This document shows, piece by piece, positions 2,286 to 9,041 of a stretch of DNA of 39,814 nucleotides (position 1 is its first letter; each line of letters opens with the position of its first letter). The DNA is from Anaerolineae bacterium (lineage in GTDB: Bacteria; Chloroflexota; Anaerolineae; Aggregatilineales; Phototrophicaceae). The DNA is taken from positions 1 to 39,814 of the forward strand of contig JALHNB010000060.1 in NCBI GenBank assembly GCA_022843745.1. The letters are read 5' to 3'. The notes beneath the pieces are model-generated. The model saw only the letters and a list, made by a program, of their open reading frames with translations. It was not told where the DNA came from and made no database searches. Position numbers and translations under genes: made by a program.

Positions 2286-3668
2286 CTACACCTTAAGATC
2301 GTTCAAAAGCTGCGCCTCTGTCCAGGGATTGAGCGCTAGATCACGGATGTCGTTCATCCAGTCGTACAGCCGATGCCGGAGTCGAGTCACTTCTGTCTGA
2401 TAAGCTGGATCGGCGGCGAGGTTGTTCAGTTCGCCGGCATCAGACGGAAGATGATACAGCTCGTCTTCGGCGGTTGCGTTCCAGATATATTTCCATTCGC
2501 GGTCACGCACCATCCGCTGCGTATACAGGCCAAACTGATTGCCATGATACATCGAGAAGATGTCTTCCCGGGTGTCGGTGGCTTGACCTTTCATGATCGG
2601 CAGCAGGCTTTGACCGCTAAAAGTGTCGGGAATGACCCCACCCGCGACATCGCAGAATGTGGCTGCCAGATCAATCGCGCTGGAAACAAAAGCACCCTGC
2701 TGCGTGTTCGCCTTAATAACATCTGGCCAGCGCATTATCAACGGGACGCGAACGACATCATCGTACATGATGTAATGCTTGTCGATCATGCCGTGTCCGC
2801 CGCACATATCCCCATGATCGGATGTATAAATCACCAGCGTTTGATTGGCGATATTGAGTGCTTCCAGCGCAGCCAGAATCCGGCCAATCTGGGCATCAAT
2901 GAGTGAAATTTCGCCGAAATAACGCGCCACAATCGGCGACCAATTTTCCCACGTCCAATCATCCACTTGCCATGTGCGCCGCTGCTGCTTCTGGATGTAC
3001 GGCTTTTTCTCAAGTGAATCAGGGAAGCTGGGCCAGGGGACAATATCCTTGGGGTTATACATGGAAGCGTAAGGCTCAGGCACGATATTCGGCAGATGCG
3101 GCTCAGATGGATCCCAACGGATAAAAAACGGCGCATCGTTCTGGCTGAACTGCTCGATCAGCCGGATCGTATTGCTGGCTCCCCAGCCTAATCGGGACTG
3201 CTCCGGCGTGATATGCGGATCGGATTCTCCAAACCAGCCCTGTGAGCGCTCACGGCGCGGGAGACCCTGCTCAGCCCGCCAATTTGCATAGTCTTCTTCC
3301 GGCACATACTCATGGAAGCCATAATCGAAGGCATCTTTCTGCGGGTGAACATGCCATTTGCCGACATACCCCAGATTGTAGCCTGCCGTGCGCAGGGATT
3401 GGCTAAAGGTTGGCAGGCCTTCTCTGGCAGGGCGCGGCGCTTCCGACTCCCAGTTGCAGATCGAGAGATGTTTACTCGTCCATACGCCATGTATCAGGCT
3501 GTTGCGAACGGGAATGCACAACGGAATCGGGCAAAAAGCGTGTGTAAAATTCGCGCCTTCCGCCGCCAGCCGATCCAGATGAGGGGTTTTTACAAGCGGG
3601 TGTCCATTAACGCCGAGGCTGTCAAAACGGTGCTGATCGACATGGACAAGTATGATGTTGGGCTGCAT
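2286..3668 (-). CDS. Type I sulfatase, predicted cytoplasmic
   Basis: Hydrolyses a sulfate ester using a formylglycine made from Cys by a maturase that is not encoded in this window. The 460-residue protein carries the modification motif CIPVR (C51), the N-terminal metal ligand region HVDQHR (D11), GKWH (103-106) and the metal-binding block YTSDHGD (D284, H285). These are the usual alkaline-phosphatase-superfamily landmarks. The N-terminus runs straight into the first beta strand (MQPNIILVHVD), with no signal peptide or lipobox, so I infer a cytoplasmic location. It is last in a minus-strand series after a solute-binding protein and two sugar permeases, which suggests it desulfates the imported sugar. 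An AAGG lies about 11 nt before the ATG. The exact substrate cannot be read from sequence. Confidence 0.9.
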   Translation of the reverse strand: MQPNIILVHVDQHRFDSLGVNGHPLVKTPHLDRLAAEGANFTHAFCPIPLCIPVRNSLIHGVWTSKHLSICNWESEAPRPAREGLPTFSQSLRTAGYNLGYVGKWHVHPQKDAFDYGFHEYVPEEDYANWRAEQGLPRRERSQGWFGESDPHITPEQSRLGWGASNTIRLIEQFSQNDAPFFIRWDPSEPHLPNIVPEPYASMYNPKDIVPWPSFPDSLEKKPYIQKQQRRTWQVDDWTWENWSPIVARYFGEISLIDAQIGRILAALEALNIANQTLVIYTSDHGDMCGGHGMIDKHYIMYDDVVRVPLIMRWPDVIKANTQQGAFVSSAIDLAATFCDVAGGVIPDTFSGQSLLPIMKGQATDTREDIFSMYHGNQFGLYTQRMVRDREWKYIWNATAEDELYHLPSDAGELNNLAADPAYQTEVTRLRHRLYDWMNDIRDLALNPWTEAQLLNDLKV

Positions 3669-3693: not shown

Positions 3694-3754
3694 GTTATGC
3701 CCTGATGCCGCTGGAGGATCGCTCTAGCGAGTTATGCCCTGATGCCGCCGGAGG
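3694..3754. repeat. Short direct duplication of the permease 3' end
   Basis: The 24 bp at 3694-3717 recur at 3731-3754 with one mismatch (offset 37). The second copy contains the last codons and stop of the MalG-like permease gene. The first lies just beyond the stop, in the spacer to the sulfatase gene. It looks like a small tandem duplication that left a vestigial C-terminus and stop behind the real one. Confidence 0.8.
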
Positions 3755-4565
3755 TTAATCCGCTGACATAATATTTCATGCCAAACGAGAAGAAAATAAT
3801 CAAAGGCACCGTCGCGACGATATACGCCGCCATCTGTGGCCCAAGATCAGTCACCCCCAGTTCAGAAGTAAATTGGGTGATCGCCACTGCGACGACCTGT
3901 TTTTGTGGGTCGGAGATGACGAGCAGCGGGCGAATATATTGGTTATAGGTCGCCACCAGCCGGATGATCGCGACGGTGACGATGATCGGGCCGGAAAGCG
4001 GAATGGCGATGTACCAGAAAAGCTGAAGTTCCGACCCGCCATCAATCCGCGCGGCATCAAAAAAATCTTCCGGCAGGTTGGCGAAAAAGGTGCGGAATAA
4101 CAGCAGCGAGAAGACCTGTCCACCCGCCATCCAGGGCAGAATGAGCGCCCATAATGTATTCACCAGACCCATCCCACTCAACAGCACGAATTCGGGGATG
4201 AGCGTGAGGATTGGCGGGATCATCAGCAGCGCCAGAATCGACGTGTACAGAATTTCCTTGCCGGGAAATTGATGCCGCGCGAAGGCATACCCGGCGAGGC
4301 TGGCAAAGACGATATTCCCCAACGTCGCCACGCTGGATGCCACCACCGAATTGATGATCGGACGGTTGATGACTTCCCAGGCCAGCGCGAAATTCTCCCA
4401 GCGAATCGGGTTCGGCGCAGACCAGAAACGTCCATAAATCTGCCCGTTATCCTTGAGCGACAGAATAATCAGGTACAGGATGGGGATAAAAACCAGGACA
4501 AACAGAATGGTCAAAATCGCAAGAATGACTAACTGGTTTCGGTTGGGGATGAGTTTTGCAATCAT
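3732..4565 (-). CDS. MalG-like sugar ABC transporter permease
   Basis: Inner-membrane subunit of a carbohydrate (CUT1-type) ABC importer. The 277-residue protein has about six membrane segments: the first at 12-35, others through 70-160, then a pair near 190-210 and 245-268. The cytoplasmic EAA coupling loop is at about 166-190 (FFDAARIDGG), where the ATPase docks. The ATG is preceded by AAAGG at 7-nt spacing. It pairs with the MalF-like permease upstream in the same direction. No ATPase gene is present, so a shared MsmX-type ATPase encoded elsewhere is likely (inference). The 3' end is partly duplicated in the adjacent spacer. Confidence 0.93.
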   Translation of the reverse strand: MIAKLIPNRNQLVILAILTILFVLVFIPILYLIILSLKDNGQIYGRFWSAPNPIRWENFALAWEVINRPIINSVVASSVATLGNIVFASLAGYAFARHQFPGKEILYTSILALLMIPPILTLIPEFVLLSGMGLVNTLWALILPWMAGGQVFSLLLFRTFFANLPEDFFDAARIDGGSELQLFWYIAIPLSGPIIVTVAIIRLVATYNQYIRPLLVISDPQKQVVAVAITQFTSELGVTDLGPQMAAYIVATVPLIIFFSFGMKYYVSGLTSGGIRA

Positions 4566-4763: not shown

Positions 4764-6743
4764 TTATACCGCTGGTTCGCGCCGCGCACGGTAGCTGAAA
4801 ATTGTGCCAGCAAGAATAATGACAAAAAGGACAATGCCGATAGCGGATGCCACGCCCATTTTATTGAGCCGCGTCGCCATGAGGTACAGTTCCAGCGCCG
4901 GGGTATAGGTGGCAGAACCCGGCCCACCGCCCGTTGTCAAAAACACCAGTTCAAAAGTTTGGACGGTGGCGATAAACGTCAGAATGGTCAGCATCCTGGC
5001 CTGCCCAAGCAGCAGAGGTACATCAATGTGCCAGAAACGCCGAAGGCCGGAAGCGCCATCCACCCTGGAAGCATCAAAAATTTCGTCGGAAATCCCGATC
5101 AGGCCGCCGTAAAACACCAGCAGCGCGAAGGGGTCTACCCAGGGAAAGCCGATAAAAATAATCGACAGCAGCGCGACTCGTCCGTCCCCGTACCAGACCT
5201 GCGTCCAGTCCTTCAGTCCAAGCGCGATCAGGGTTTGATTAAGCAGGCCAATATTCGGGTCATAGATGTTGTTCCACACCATGATCTCGACGACCATCGG
5301 CAGGACAATCGGAATGATGAACAGGGTGCGGAAAACATAACGGGCGGTTTTGTGGCGTACATGGAAAATCAACTCGGCAGCCAGCAGCGGCACGGTTACG
5401 ATCCGCGCGATGCCGACGATAATGAGGATCAACACATTCAGGAAGCCTGACCAGAAGAAACGATCCTGAAGCAGATAGGCGAAATTTTCCAGCCCGACCC
5501 ATTCGGCGCTGACACCCGGTTTCCAGTCCGTGAAGGCATGATACAGGCCGGAAGCCGCCGGGTAGTAATTGAAGGTCGCTAGCAAGAGAATCGTGGGCAG
5601 GATAAACAGATAGGACAGCCGCGCGCGCCACATCCGCCTTAAAAGCTTGCGCGGGCCAGCCGTGCGCGTTTCCCAGAATATTCGTCCGCTGTCGGTACTG
5701 CGGATCGACCAACCCGCGAAGGCCGTCGTAAGTACCAGCAGGGCAATCGCGCCATACACGGTCTGGTTGCGCTGCGATTGGTTCGACTCTACGGCGGCGG
5801 CAGCCAGTTGTTGATTCTGAAGCTGACCATACCCGCCTTCGGTTGTAAAAGCCACGACAGAACCATCACCCGCGATAGCCACATCCATCAGAGTGGCATC
5901 CTGCTCAAACGTTTGCAGAATCTCGCCCGCGTCATTGAGCAGCAGGGCGCGGCCTGTATTCGTGGCGGCGAGAATATTCTGACCATTCTGGGTGAGGGCG
6001 ATTCGCTCGACGGGCGCACCCACTGAGGCCTCCCACACGATGCTGCCGTTGCCGCCGTGAACCAGCGTGACCGTGCCATCGGTTGTACCGACGGCGATCC
6101 GCGCACCGTTGGCTGTCACCGCCAGATCGGAAATGGCGTAATCAAGAAAGGCTTGCAGGAGCGCCTGACCGCTGCGGCTGTAAATCGTTAAGCGGCTGCC
6201 GTCTGTGCCAACCACAGCCCGCGCGTTATCGCCCGTGCCGTAAATATCAACCGCCCGCACATTTGTCCCGTCAGTGTCCTGCCAGAGCAGCGTTCCGGCT
6301 TCGTCCAGTCCATAGACGGAGCGATCATTGGCGGTGACAGCGAGAAATGAACCGTCGTCCGCAATCGCGACATTATTCGCCGAACGGGGCGCTTTGAATT
6401 CCCACACAGCCTGCCCATCAGCATCGAGCAGGTAGGTGTTGCGATCTTCCGAAGCGGCTGCCGTCCACAGGCCGTCCGAGGTGATATCCACGCCCAGGAT
6501 GCTGTTTTCCGCCTCAAACTCCCACAAACGGCTGCCGCTGGCATCATAGACTTCCAGCACATTACTGGACGACCCAAATGCGATCCTGTCGCCGTCACCG
6601 TTGATCGCCGTCGTGTTGAGGCGACCATTCACGGTCACATCCCAAAGAACACCTGTCAGTTGGCCTTGAGTCAACGAGAGAACGATGATAACCGCGATTG
6701 CCACAAACAATATTGCAGCGAACAGGCGGATCGGTAATTTCAT
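4764..6743 (-). CDS. MalF-like ABC permease fused to an extracytoplasmic beta-propeller
   Basis: Sugar ABC importer permease with an unusual N-terminal half. From the ATG at 6743 the product is 659 residues. A first membrane anchor at about 5-25 (LFAAILFVAIAVIIVL) leads into repeats of about 40 residues from roughly 30 to 325, resembling WD40/PQQ-type propeller blades (LYDxDGxxLWxF, VAIADDGSFLA, VAVTxNGxRIAVG). A second helix lies at about 333-353. A standard MalF-type permease follows (about 375-655) with its EAA loop at 553-581 (IFDASRVDGASGL). The two helices place the propeller outside the membrane while leaving the permease in normal orientation. A TTG at 6776 would add 11 residues; neither start has a strong ribosome-binding site, and I prefer the ATG. 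It lies between the binding protein and the MalG-like permease. Confidence 0.92.
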   Translation of the reverse strand: MKLPIRLFAAILFVAIAVIIVLSLTQGQLTGVLWDVTVNGRLNTTAINGDGDRIAFGSSSNVLEVYDASGSRLWEFEAENSILGVDITSDGLWTAAASEDRNTYLLDADGQAVWEFKAPRSANNVAIADDGSFLAVTANDRSVYGLDEAGTLLWQDTDGTNVRAVDIYGTGDNARAVVGTDGSRLTIYSRSGQALLQAFLDYAISDLAVTANGARIAVGTTDGTVTLVHGGNGSIVWEASVGAPVERIALTQNGQNILAATNTGRALLLNDAGEILQTFEQDATLMDVAIAGDGSVVAFTTEGGYGQLQNQQLAAAAVESNQSQRNQTVYGAIALLVLTTAFAGWSIRSTDSGRIFWETRTAGPRKLLRRMWRARLSYLFILPTILLLATFNYYPAASGLYHAFTDWKPGVSAEWVGLENFAYLLQDRFFWSGFLNVLILIIVGIARIVTVPLLAAELIFHVRHKTARYVFRTLFIIPIVLPMVVEIMVWNNIYDPNIGLLNQTLIALGLKDWTQVWYGDGRVALLSIIFIGFPWVDPFALLVFYGGLIGISDEIFDASRVDGASGLRRFWHIDVPLLLGQARMLTILTFIATVQTFELVFLTTGGGPGSATYTPALELYLMATRLNKMGVASAIGIVLFVIILAGTIFSYRARREPAV

Positions 6744-6902
6744 AGCATGGGATTCCCAATCATTCCTGCCCGACAAACCAATGGTTTCAATGGTGTGCCG
6801 GACAGATTTTACATAGTCAGATATTTCCAGGCGCTGTTGTCTGATCCGTAGGAGCGCAATAATACGTTTTAACGGTTAAATACGGAAACACGCCAACGTT
6901 TC

Positions 6903-7034
6903 GTAGGGACACGATGATGCGTTTTAACGATTAAATACGGAGTTTAGCGGATGGCATGTAGGGGCGAGGCATGCCTCGCCCCTACGAAATCTGTACTCCG
7001 GCTTATTTTGTTAAAACGCATGGATCGTGTCCTG
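6903..7034. repeat. Nested inverted repeat with a perfect central palindrome
   Basis: The outer arms share GGACACGAT, GCGTTTTAAC and CGGAGT blocks in inverted orientation. Between them lies a perfect 28-bp palindrome (6958-6985) with ends GTAGGGGCGAGG and CCTCGCCCCTAC. The left arm also recurs as a direct copy at 6846-6886. This looks like a non-autonomous palindromic element; no open frame lies inside. Confidence 0.75.
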
Positions 7035-7149
7035 TTGGATGCAAGAGCGCACAGCGGTGCGCCCCTACAAAATCCGTGCTCCGTATTAATTTGTAAAACT
7101 ACATTAGAACCCATCTGAAAATTCGAACTTCCGCGCCAAAACGGTATCT

Positions 7150-7220
7150 GTAGGGGCAGGTCTCAGACCTGCCCGTTGTGTATCATGGCATCATGGGCGG
7201 GTCTCAGACCCGCCCCTACA
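7150..7220. repeat. Pair of family A palindromes with TCTCAGA cores
   Basis: Two palindromes lie close together: 7154-7174 (GGGCAGGTCTCAGACCTGCCC less its outer base) and 7195-7215 (GGGCGGGTCTCAGACC...). The outer GTAG at 7150 and CTAC at 7216-7219 bracket the pair. The inner stems differ by a compensated base pair, so complementarity is kept while the sequence changes. Confidence 0.8.
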
Positions 7221-7337
7221 AAAGATTCGCCGAATATTCAGAAAGGTTCTTATTGCGCCCCTACACAAGAACACTCCCGATTCTCCAAAAATCTCGTGTT
7301 GCGAAATGCACTGGAGAGGGCAGGGGGATCAATAGGC

Positions 7338-9041
7338 CTAGTTAGGGCCAGCCGCGACCCATCCCGGAGGTTGTTTTTCCGGCGATTCCAGGTCTTCGGG
7401 CGTGATGTTCAGGAAAACGAGAATTTCGTCAAATCGGTTTTCCAACACTTGTTGGTAGCTGGTCGCGAATTCTTCGGCGGTAATTTCCTCATTGTAGAAC
7501 TGCTGCACCAGGGTTGCCCATTCACGGACGGTTTCCTGATATTTGAAGAAGCCACGCGCCACCTGATCGCCCGGTGCGCCGGGTTTTTCGTAGTTGCCGA
7601 TGAAGTTCGAATTCTCGAACAACACGGCCTGTTCTGGTGGGAGAGACACGTTCGTAATCAGGGGCGGGCCGCTGATGCCGCCTTGCAGATTGTCCGGGTC
7701 AAGCTTGTTTTGCATGAAGATTTCCATACCCTGTGGGCTTGTCCAGAACATGACAAAATCGACTTCCAGGGCGTTCTGGGCGCGATCTTTAACTGGAATC
7801 GTCAGATTGCCGCTGGTCAGTTCGTTGGCGCGGGCGTTGCCTTGTGCGCAGTCACTGACGATATTGGGGAAGGAGAATGTGCCGTATTCGAATAACTCGG
7901 CGGCGGCAATATCATCGGCATCCACTTCAGCAGCGCCACCGTATTCACCTTGTGCCAGCGCACGAATATCCTTGGGGAAGCTGGAATGAAATCCACCTGT
8001 AGCCATCCACATAGCGGCCTGCTGCGTCAGGAAAAGCGGGTAGGCATCGGAGATACCCGTCCAGCCATCAGGAACAAAACCGTTGGAGGTCTTGAAAACC
8101 CTGCCGATCTGGTTCATCATGTCGGCGGTGCATTCCGTGTCAAAACGGATGTCGCCGTTCTTAAGCGCGTTCAGGTGGCGCACGATGTTAATCGAAACCT
8201 GGTCAGGATCATCGTTACGCGGGTCGGTGGGATCATAGGTCCACACATCGTCAATCCCTTCGCGGAAGCACCAGTCACCCGGCTGGCAGCGAATCAGTTC
8301 CAGATCGTCGCGGTGATATTGATCCATCGCCGAGCGCAGCAGCCAGGGCATCCGACCACCTGTCCAGATTTTTTCAACTGTGGCCTCCAGAGCGATAGGA
8401 ATATAGCCCGTCGCCTTGATCTTTTCTGACCATTCCACCAGTTGATCCCAGGTGGGTTGGGCAGGGACATCGGTAATGCCCGCTTCAGCAAATATGCGCT
8501 TGTTGTAGACCCAGAATGTCTGCACCGACATATAGGGCATCGTGTACATTTCGCCCGTGTTGGGGTCACGCACCAGATTTAACGCCCAATCCTCAAAGCT
8601 GTCTTCCCATTTCGCGCCTGTGTATGGGTTCACCTGCTGCAAATAGGATGCCCAGTTCAGCAGCAGACCCTCTTGCGCCAGATCGCGGAAATGCGGCGAC
8701 TCGATGATCGACACACGCGGCGCACCCGTGGCAAATTGAGCGCGGATGAACTGAAGGTAGGCTTCGCCTTCAGCGGCGGGTTTCAATTCCAGGCTGACCG
8801 TAACGTTGGGATGTAGGGCTGTGTACGCATCCGCTAATGCCTGATAGGTCTGTACATCGTTGGAGGCGATGCTAATTACAATTTCGCCGGATAACTCAGC
8901 ATCACCAGCCCCGGCGGCGGGAGCTTCGATCTCAATGACTTCTTCGGTTGCCTCTTGGGCGGCGACACTCACGATAAACAGGAGGCACAGCGCAAGCAAG
9001 GATAAAATGAGGGTAAAACGTTTTCTGAATTTTGAGTACAT
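7338..9041 (-). CDS. Sugar ABC transporter solute-binding protein (family 1)
   Basis: Extracytoplasmic receptor delivering a carbohydrate to the membrane permeases. From the ATG at 9041 it is 567 residues, larger than the 400-450 usual for family 1. A signal peptide occupies about 1-29 (basic MYSKFRKRF, hydrophobic stretch, then VAAQ), followed by an acidic Ala/Glu linker. The mature protein shows family 1 features such as YTALHPNVTVSLE, NKRIFAEAGI and PTWDQLVEWSEKI. A GGAG 6 nt before the ATG decides the start over the in-frame TTG 12 nt upstream. It is the first gene of the minus-strand sugar cassette, and the 594-bp palindrome-rich spacer follows it. The ligand is not predictable, but the sulfatase in the cassette suggests a sulfated sugar. 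Confidence 0.93.
   Translation of the reverse strand: MYSKFRKRFTLILSLLALCLLFIVSVAAQEATEEVIEIEAPAAGAGDAELSGEIVISIASNDVQTYQALADAYTALHPNVTVSLELKPAAEGEAYLQFIRAQFATGAPRVSIIESPHFRDLAQEGLLLNWASYLQQVNPYTGAKWEDSFEDWALNLVRDPNTGEMYTMPYMSVQTFWVYNKRIFAEAGITDVPAQPTWDQLVEWSEKIKATGYIPIALEATVEKIWTGGRMPWLLRSAMDQYHRDDLELIRCQPGDWCFREGIDDVWTYDPTDPRNDDPDQVSINIVRHLNALKNGDIRFDTECTADMMNQIGRVFKTSNGFVPDGWTGISDAYPLFLTQQAAMWMATGGFHSSFPKDIRALAQGEYGGAAEVDADDIAAAELFEYGTFSFPNIVSDCAQGNARANELTSGNLTIPVKDRAQNALEVDFVMFWTSPQGMEIFMQNKLDPDNLQGGISGPPLITNVSLPPEQAVLFENSNFIGNYEKPGAPGDQVARGFFKYQETVREWATLVQQFYNEEITAEEFATSYQQVLENRFDEILVFLNITPEDLESPEKQPPGWVAAGPN

Follow-up and report, generated by a model that had tools for sequence, protein, structure and literature searches.

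The common view of type I importers is of a conserved core with a binding protein that is either free or tethered. In E. coli, the MalF subunit of the maltose importer carries extra helices before its core, as does the protein described here, while its P2 domain, which is not a WD40 propeller, is inserted into the core between TM3 and TM4. GlnPQ has a covalently linked substrate-binding domain, as does OpuA. MalF-P2 is treated in PMC3150292, and work on it is cited in PMC3328499. OpuA is described as having a soluble extracytoplasmic domain joined covalently, through a membrane anchor, to its transmembrane subunit (PMC11065425).

The window analyzed here, a 39,814-nucleotide stretch of DNA from an Anaerolineae bacterium, encodes a MalF subunit with a membrane-tethered β-propeller added at its N-terminus, belonging to a carbohydrate ABC importer of type I (CUT1, maltose-importer-like). 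This subunit shares with MalF of MalFGK2 (2r6g chain F) a homologous permease core and the presence of a large extracytoplasmic part. In contrast to MalF, its extra domain precedes the whole core, and the position of P2 is short. As in OpuA and GlnPQ, a soluble extracytoplasmic domain is covalently attached to the transmembrane subunit; here, however, the attached domain is a propeller, with the binding protein encoded by a separate gene. We judge the importer to be of a known kind and its propeller arrangement to be new. Narrow literature searches returned no description of a propeller-permease fusion, consistent with the sequence-only reading, which knew of no characterized transporter of this type. 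Kept in several bacterial groups, including cultured Paenibacillus, the built-in propeller would be a further arrangement for substrate delivery. As a single domain between two helices, it can be deleted or swapped, which makes the system testable.

Layout and fold of the fusion protein

The fusion gene spans positions 4764..6743 on the minus strand, the strand of all the window's genes and domains located below. Counted from the ATG at 6743 it has 659 codons (659 aa), and an alternative TTG at 6776 makes a longer reading possible. Pfam PQQ_2 (48.0 bits, cut-off 27.6) and BPD_transp_1 (36.3 bits, cut-off 26.4) match in this one frame. The protein runs from a membrane helix through a seven-bladed β-propeller and a second helix to a MalF-type sugar permease. 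Hydropathy, the Pfam matches, and the EIFDASRVDGAS motif thus bear out the order that had been read from the sequence, namely two membrane helices around a propeller, followed by a permease with its EAA loop.

TM1, or signal anchor, covers residues 7-25 by hydropathy (6669..6725) and appears as helix 3-24 in the AlphaFold2 model. The propeller is followed by a single long helix, residues 311-349 (5697..5813), which the model and hydropathy resolve into a stalk and then TM2 (about 329-347). By hydropathy, 303 residues separate TM1 from TM2; across the 34 fusions measured, the distance ranges from 295 to 312 residues. Seven Lys/Arg residues lie in the 25 residues following TM2 versus one in the preceding 25. 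The same charge rule is obeyed by 32 of 34 fusions, the exceptions, L080 and L081, being close relatives of each other. From this rule we infer an extracytoplasmic propeller, in agreement with the earlier proposal that the propeller is outside and the permease keeps its usual orientation. Several members have an AxA-like site after TM1; these might be cleaved there, leaving TM2 as the sole anchor.

The propeller itself (residues 31-310; 5814..6653) is a WD40/PQQ-type domain. AlphaFold2 modeling of the fusion product alone gave a closed ring of four-stranded blades, with 28 strands (7 x 4) between residues 32 and 310, at a pLDDT of about 90 in a 9-sequence model and about 95 in a 31-sequence model. 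The propeller-like repeats noted from the sequence are therefore predicted to form a closed seven-bladed propeller. Strand 32-37, the first in the model, may be taken as blade 7's outer strand, which would close the ring in the manner usual for WD40 propellers and let both ends of the propeller leave from the same blade. The best solved matches by VIA-align, over about 280 residues, were the seven-bladed bacterial WD40 propellers 2ymu (Z 39.3) and 5yzv from Thermomonospora curvata (Z 39.0), which share the fold of the window propeller. No ABC-transporter permease was seen, by title, among the best 50 entries of either PDB list. In Pfam, the propeller was matched by the general PQQ_2 profile and related propeller profiles only. 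In a search for a conserved binding face on the propeller, the B-C loops proved the most conserved loop class within the window's subfamily (13 of 26 non-redundant rows), at 0.71 versus 0.54-0.68 for the others. Their residues conform to the usual WD40 pattern, however, and the conserved loop residues appear to be largely those of ordinary WD40 repeats.

The MalF-type permease core occupies residues 373-652 (4788..5627). The NCBIfam profiles UgpA, GlcT, and MalF all match it below their cut-offs, and the nearest solved structure by sequence is MalF (2r6g chain F; E 2e-17 over 246 residues). This alignment starts only at MalF residue 253, after P2, and just 22 residues connect model helices 376-405 and 428-460, leaving no large insertion of the P2 type. 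The likeness to the periplasmic loop of MalF, drawn in the sequence-only reading, is thus functional at most. Pfam found no SBP family domain in the fusion chain, which sets it apart from the OpuA/GlnPQ type. The EAA loop, residues 554-578 (5010..5084; extent set by eye), begins with EIFDASRVDGAS at residue 554. Across 31 rows, residue G563 is invariant and D574 and P576 are nearly so; the loop presumably contacts the ATPase. A shared ATPase encoded elsewhere in the genome is usual for such importers. The permease has a pLDDT of roughly 50-80 in the 31-sequence model, in which its helices are usable and the propeller-permease orientation is not.

Recurrence and history of the fusion

Two further copies with the same layout are present in the same genome, C40 (48% identical) and C11 (35% over the aligned part), alongside many ordinary permeases. 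Each of the 31 aligned fusions, a set that was picked on length and spacing of the helices and includes the window's own, matches both PQQ_2 and BPD_transp_1 (E 0.001 or better). With HMMs built from this alignment, all 35 fusion loci show propeller and permease in a single frame; in 20 control loci around ordinary permeases of the same genome, the propeller HMM has no match. The joining of two genes through misassembly or loss of a stop codon, the outcome that the sequence-only reading had named as fatal to its proposal, is ruled out for practical purposes by the three genomic copies and the single frame in every locus, and nothing was found in its favor.

Within the window's order, 7 of 154 genomes carry the full fusion, in 10 full copies plus one cut by a contig end. 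The phylum sample gave at least 3 of 400 genomes, including the window's own, a lower bound since two candidates were scored per genome. A contig search with the single window protein gave no match, whereas an alignment query recovered 42 loci in named genomes: 28 propeller fusions, one different fusion (L094), and 13 unfused permeases. The 28 were called by ORF length and helix spacing, and two of them, L077 and L110, are cut by contig ends. The taxonomic range that the earlier reading had proposed to map takes in Anaerolineae and other Chloroflexi, Caldilineaceae, Thermomicrobiales, Paenibacillus (P. eucommiae, P. nasutitermitis, P. mendelii, and P. contaminans), and one Spirochaetaceae genome. 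The Spirochaetaceae copy, L110, exceeds the PQQ_2 cut-off (34.5 bits), and its BPD_transp_1 score (22.5 bits, cut-off 26.4) falls short because the contig cuts the permease. In the genus of P. nasutitermitis, at least one fusion is found in 5 of 22 genomes, that species included. Three further Paenibacillus fusion matches (G565:C6, G577:C1, and G553:C2) each contain one in-frame TAG, possibly upstream of the true start. None of 637 matching plasmid records reaches 80% coverage of the fusion protein.

A tree was built from 53 permease cores, comprising 30 fusions, 22 unfused permeases, and one binding-protein fusion; L077, L081, L092, L110, and L116 were omitted as partial or near-identical. 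All 30 fusions fall within one group of 34 (support 99/99), together with the unfused L101, L104, L109, and L192, of which L104 (long branch) and L109 (odd letter make-up) are less surely placed. A strict fusion-only clade, and with it a single origin without any losses, is rejected (p-AU 6.7e-05). When these four members are left out, the 30 fusions form one group against the other 19 rows (99/99). The tree suggests, as the simplest reading, one old gain of the propeller and a few losses; several separate gains may have taken place. The propeller HMM found no detached propeller beside the four unfused members. A supposed split version at L194 was, by eye, not propeller-like.

The different fusion, L094 (6483-8900; Armatimonadetes isolate SJ283), joins SBP_bac_1 (98 bits) and BPD_transp_1 (53 bits) in one chain, with the binding protein ahead of a related MalF core, where the window's fusion has its propeller. 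Among 291 genomes of that phylum (the phylum of G556), six have a full-length fusion of this type, open in five and with an in-frame TGA in one. The binding-protein and MalF halves lie on separate contigs in G618 and are adjacent separate matches in G653, G654, G664, G669, G671, and G707. The Armatimonadota fusions resemble the window's in their signal, extracytoplasmic domain, extra helix, and related MalF core, but their domain is SBP_bac_1 and the L094 permease lies outside the propeller-fusion clade, which makes it probably an independent event. An extracytoplasmic module has thus probably entered the N-terminal slot on at least two occasions.

The partner binding protein

As had been noted from the sequence, the fusion lies beside a large solute-binding protein (567 aa; 7338..9041; SBP_bac_1, 80.9 bits) and a MalG-type partner permease (277 aa; 3732..4565; BPD_transp_1, 60 bits; GlcU, UgpE, and MalG profiles below cut-off). 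Both neighbors recur among relatives. A binding-protein HMM matches directly upstream of the fusion in 34 of 35 loci (441-778 bits), the remaining one, L077, being truncated at its contig end. As 22 of those upstream proteins went into building the HMM, it favors them. A plain ORF count finds the upstream binding protein in 33 of 35 loci (457-630 codons, 28 complete), missing L083. The 28 complete partners measure 520-630 codons, which are first-start lengths and hence upper bounds. A MalG-sized ORF follows the fusion in 23 of 29 loci, and the 21 other binding proteins in alignment A2 share 25-68% identity with that of the window.

The binding-protein profile matches, at E 1e-40 or better, the same 7 of 154 genomes of the order that carry full fusions, and all 10 of its copies adjoin a fusion by coordinates. 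A search of the window's genome with its binding protein gives six matches at E 0.001; only the three beside the three fusions are full-length. Three candidates per genome were scored in the phylum sample, and at E 1e-25 the large binding protein occurs in 5 of 400 genomes.

The sequence-only reading had connected the propeller with the unusual size of its 567-residue partner. This link is broken by two of these five genomes, the Chloroflexota G306 and G393, in which a related large binding protein, in a 579-codon frame, adjoins an unfused permease; the propeller thus does not explain the size, nor is the large binding protein the cause of the propeller. Such relatives beside unfused permeases score 334-365 bits with the HMM of the fusion partners. 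Genome G289 holds one more copy (257 bits), with no permease match in the 18 kb around it. Beside the 20 best-scoring unfused permeases of the window's genome, taken from 69 further matches there, 416-501-codon binding proteins, called by position and N-terminus rather than by Pfam, were found in 17 loci and none was seen in three. At locus L195 (G289:C4), one fusion and its partner permease are flanked by two large binding-protein genes.

Co-variation between propeller and binding protein was unspecific. Partial Mantel correlations, computed for the 23 of 29 loci with a callable MalG-sized ORF, were 0.57 for propeller and binding protein versus 0.72 for MalG and binding protein when the permease was controlled for, and 0.34 for propeller and binding protein versus 0.23 for permease and binding protein when MalG was. 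A special co-evolution of the two was therefore rejected: the propeller is inherited with the whole operon, without a special tie to the binding protein. The gap between the binding-protein and fusion genes (6780-7335) contains palindromic repeats. A 28-base palindrome at 6958-6985 occurs at 32 genomic places at up to two mismatches and at none in a reversed control.

Role of the propeller and operon context

Our preferred reading, to which we give a probability of roughly 45%, is that the propeller is a raised docking platform for the partner binding protein. With the ring closed by its N-terminal strand, TM1 and TM2 would emerge side by side, and the long helix 311-349 would lift the propeller off the membrane, beside the mouth of the permease. 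There it could act as a fixed platform that catches or orients the binding protein, filling the role of the P2 loop of E. coli MalF by another route. We rank docking first because of the position of the domain, with its fold and topology, the constant adjacency of the binding protein (34 of 35 loci), and the Armatimonadota parallel, in which a binding protein occupies the same slot of a related MalF, so that a module placed there can serve substrate delivery. Against it, the pairs in G306 and G393 indicate that such a binding protein and permease can function in the absence of a propeller, unfused members of the clade lie next to related binding proteins, the propeller varies together with the operon as a whole, and its conserved loop residues appear largely of the ordinary WD40 kind. 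The explanation proposed from the sequence is partly borne out. More tentatively, these importers could form a distinct branch in which the stalked propeller on MalF is a built-in receptor that retains the binding protein in its docked position or is the first to capture the glycan; if so, substrate would be handed over on the transporter rather than delivered by free diffusion.

Among the alternatives, we consider it rather unlikely that the propeller itself binds the glycan or its source polymer, raising the local substrate concentration, or senses the glycan. Sugar-related genes do accompany the fusions, with sulfatase-like genes at 3, α-fucosidase/GH42-like at 5, LacI-like at 6, and a 750-residue protein at 6 of 33 fusion loci, against 0, 1, 0, and 0 of 20 control loci. 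The propeller also varies more than the permease among fusions, as might be expected of a substrate-specific domain. The window shows a weak match to the lambda-carrageenase propeller family (25.5 bits, cut-off 26.8). Thirteen of 31 fusions match this family at E 0.001 or better, a level that many unrelated WD40 families reach too. The enzymes change between loci while the propeller stays, no carbohydrate-binding module is present among the Pfam families of the window or among the 25 of 38 families listed for the 31 fusions, and the chain bears no cytoplasmic signaling domain. Less probable again is a structural tether or stabilizer that anchors the importer to the cell wall or an envelope protein, or steadies the MalF-MalG dimer. 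Two-helix anchoring and the long stalk helix of the model would suit this role, and the absence of the propeller from four clade members suggests that it is dispensable for transport as such; yet in both Chloroflexota and Paenibacillus, whose envelopes differ, it stays next to a single binding-protein family. We give very little credence to the propeller as a substitute for the lipid anchor of the binding protein in bacteria that lack an outer membrane. A lipobox is absent from 11 of the 28 complete binding proteins, that of the window among them, but 16 of the 28 have a plausible one (a 17th match, in L086, lies in a doubtful N-terminal extension), which refutes a lost anchor as the general reason for the propeller.

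The window's sulfatase (2286..3668; PF00884, 149 bits) lies beside the importer genes. The linkage to sulfatases that had been suggested is confined to three fusion loci, those of the window, a partial G023 copy (L128), and Prado095 (L078). PhyH-like genes occur at 9 and Gfo-like genes at 11 of the 33 fusion loci, against 1 and 0 of the 20 controls. All these neighbor counts, some of them made with Pfam, are descriptive, as locus lengths are unequal, controls are mostly shorter, and some fusions are near-copies. The importer substrate probably varies between subclades. In one subclade, a conserved protein of about 750 residues follows the partner permease (L121:4669-6921, L124:5762-8029, L125:4922-7303, and L127:5280-7538), two of its six occurrences being weak. 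One member, searched with Pfam, gave no match; the protein is perhaps an unrecognized carbohydrate enzyme.
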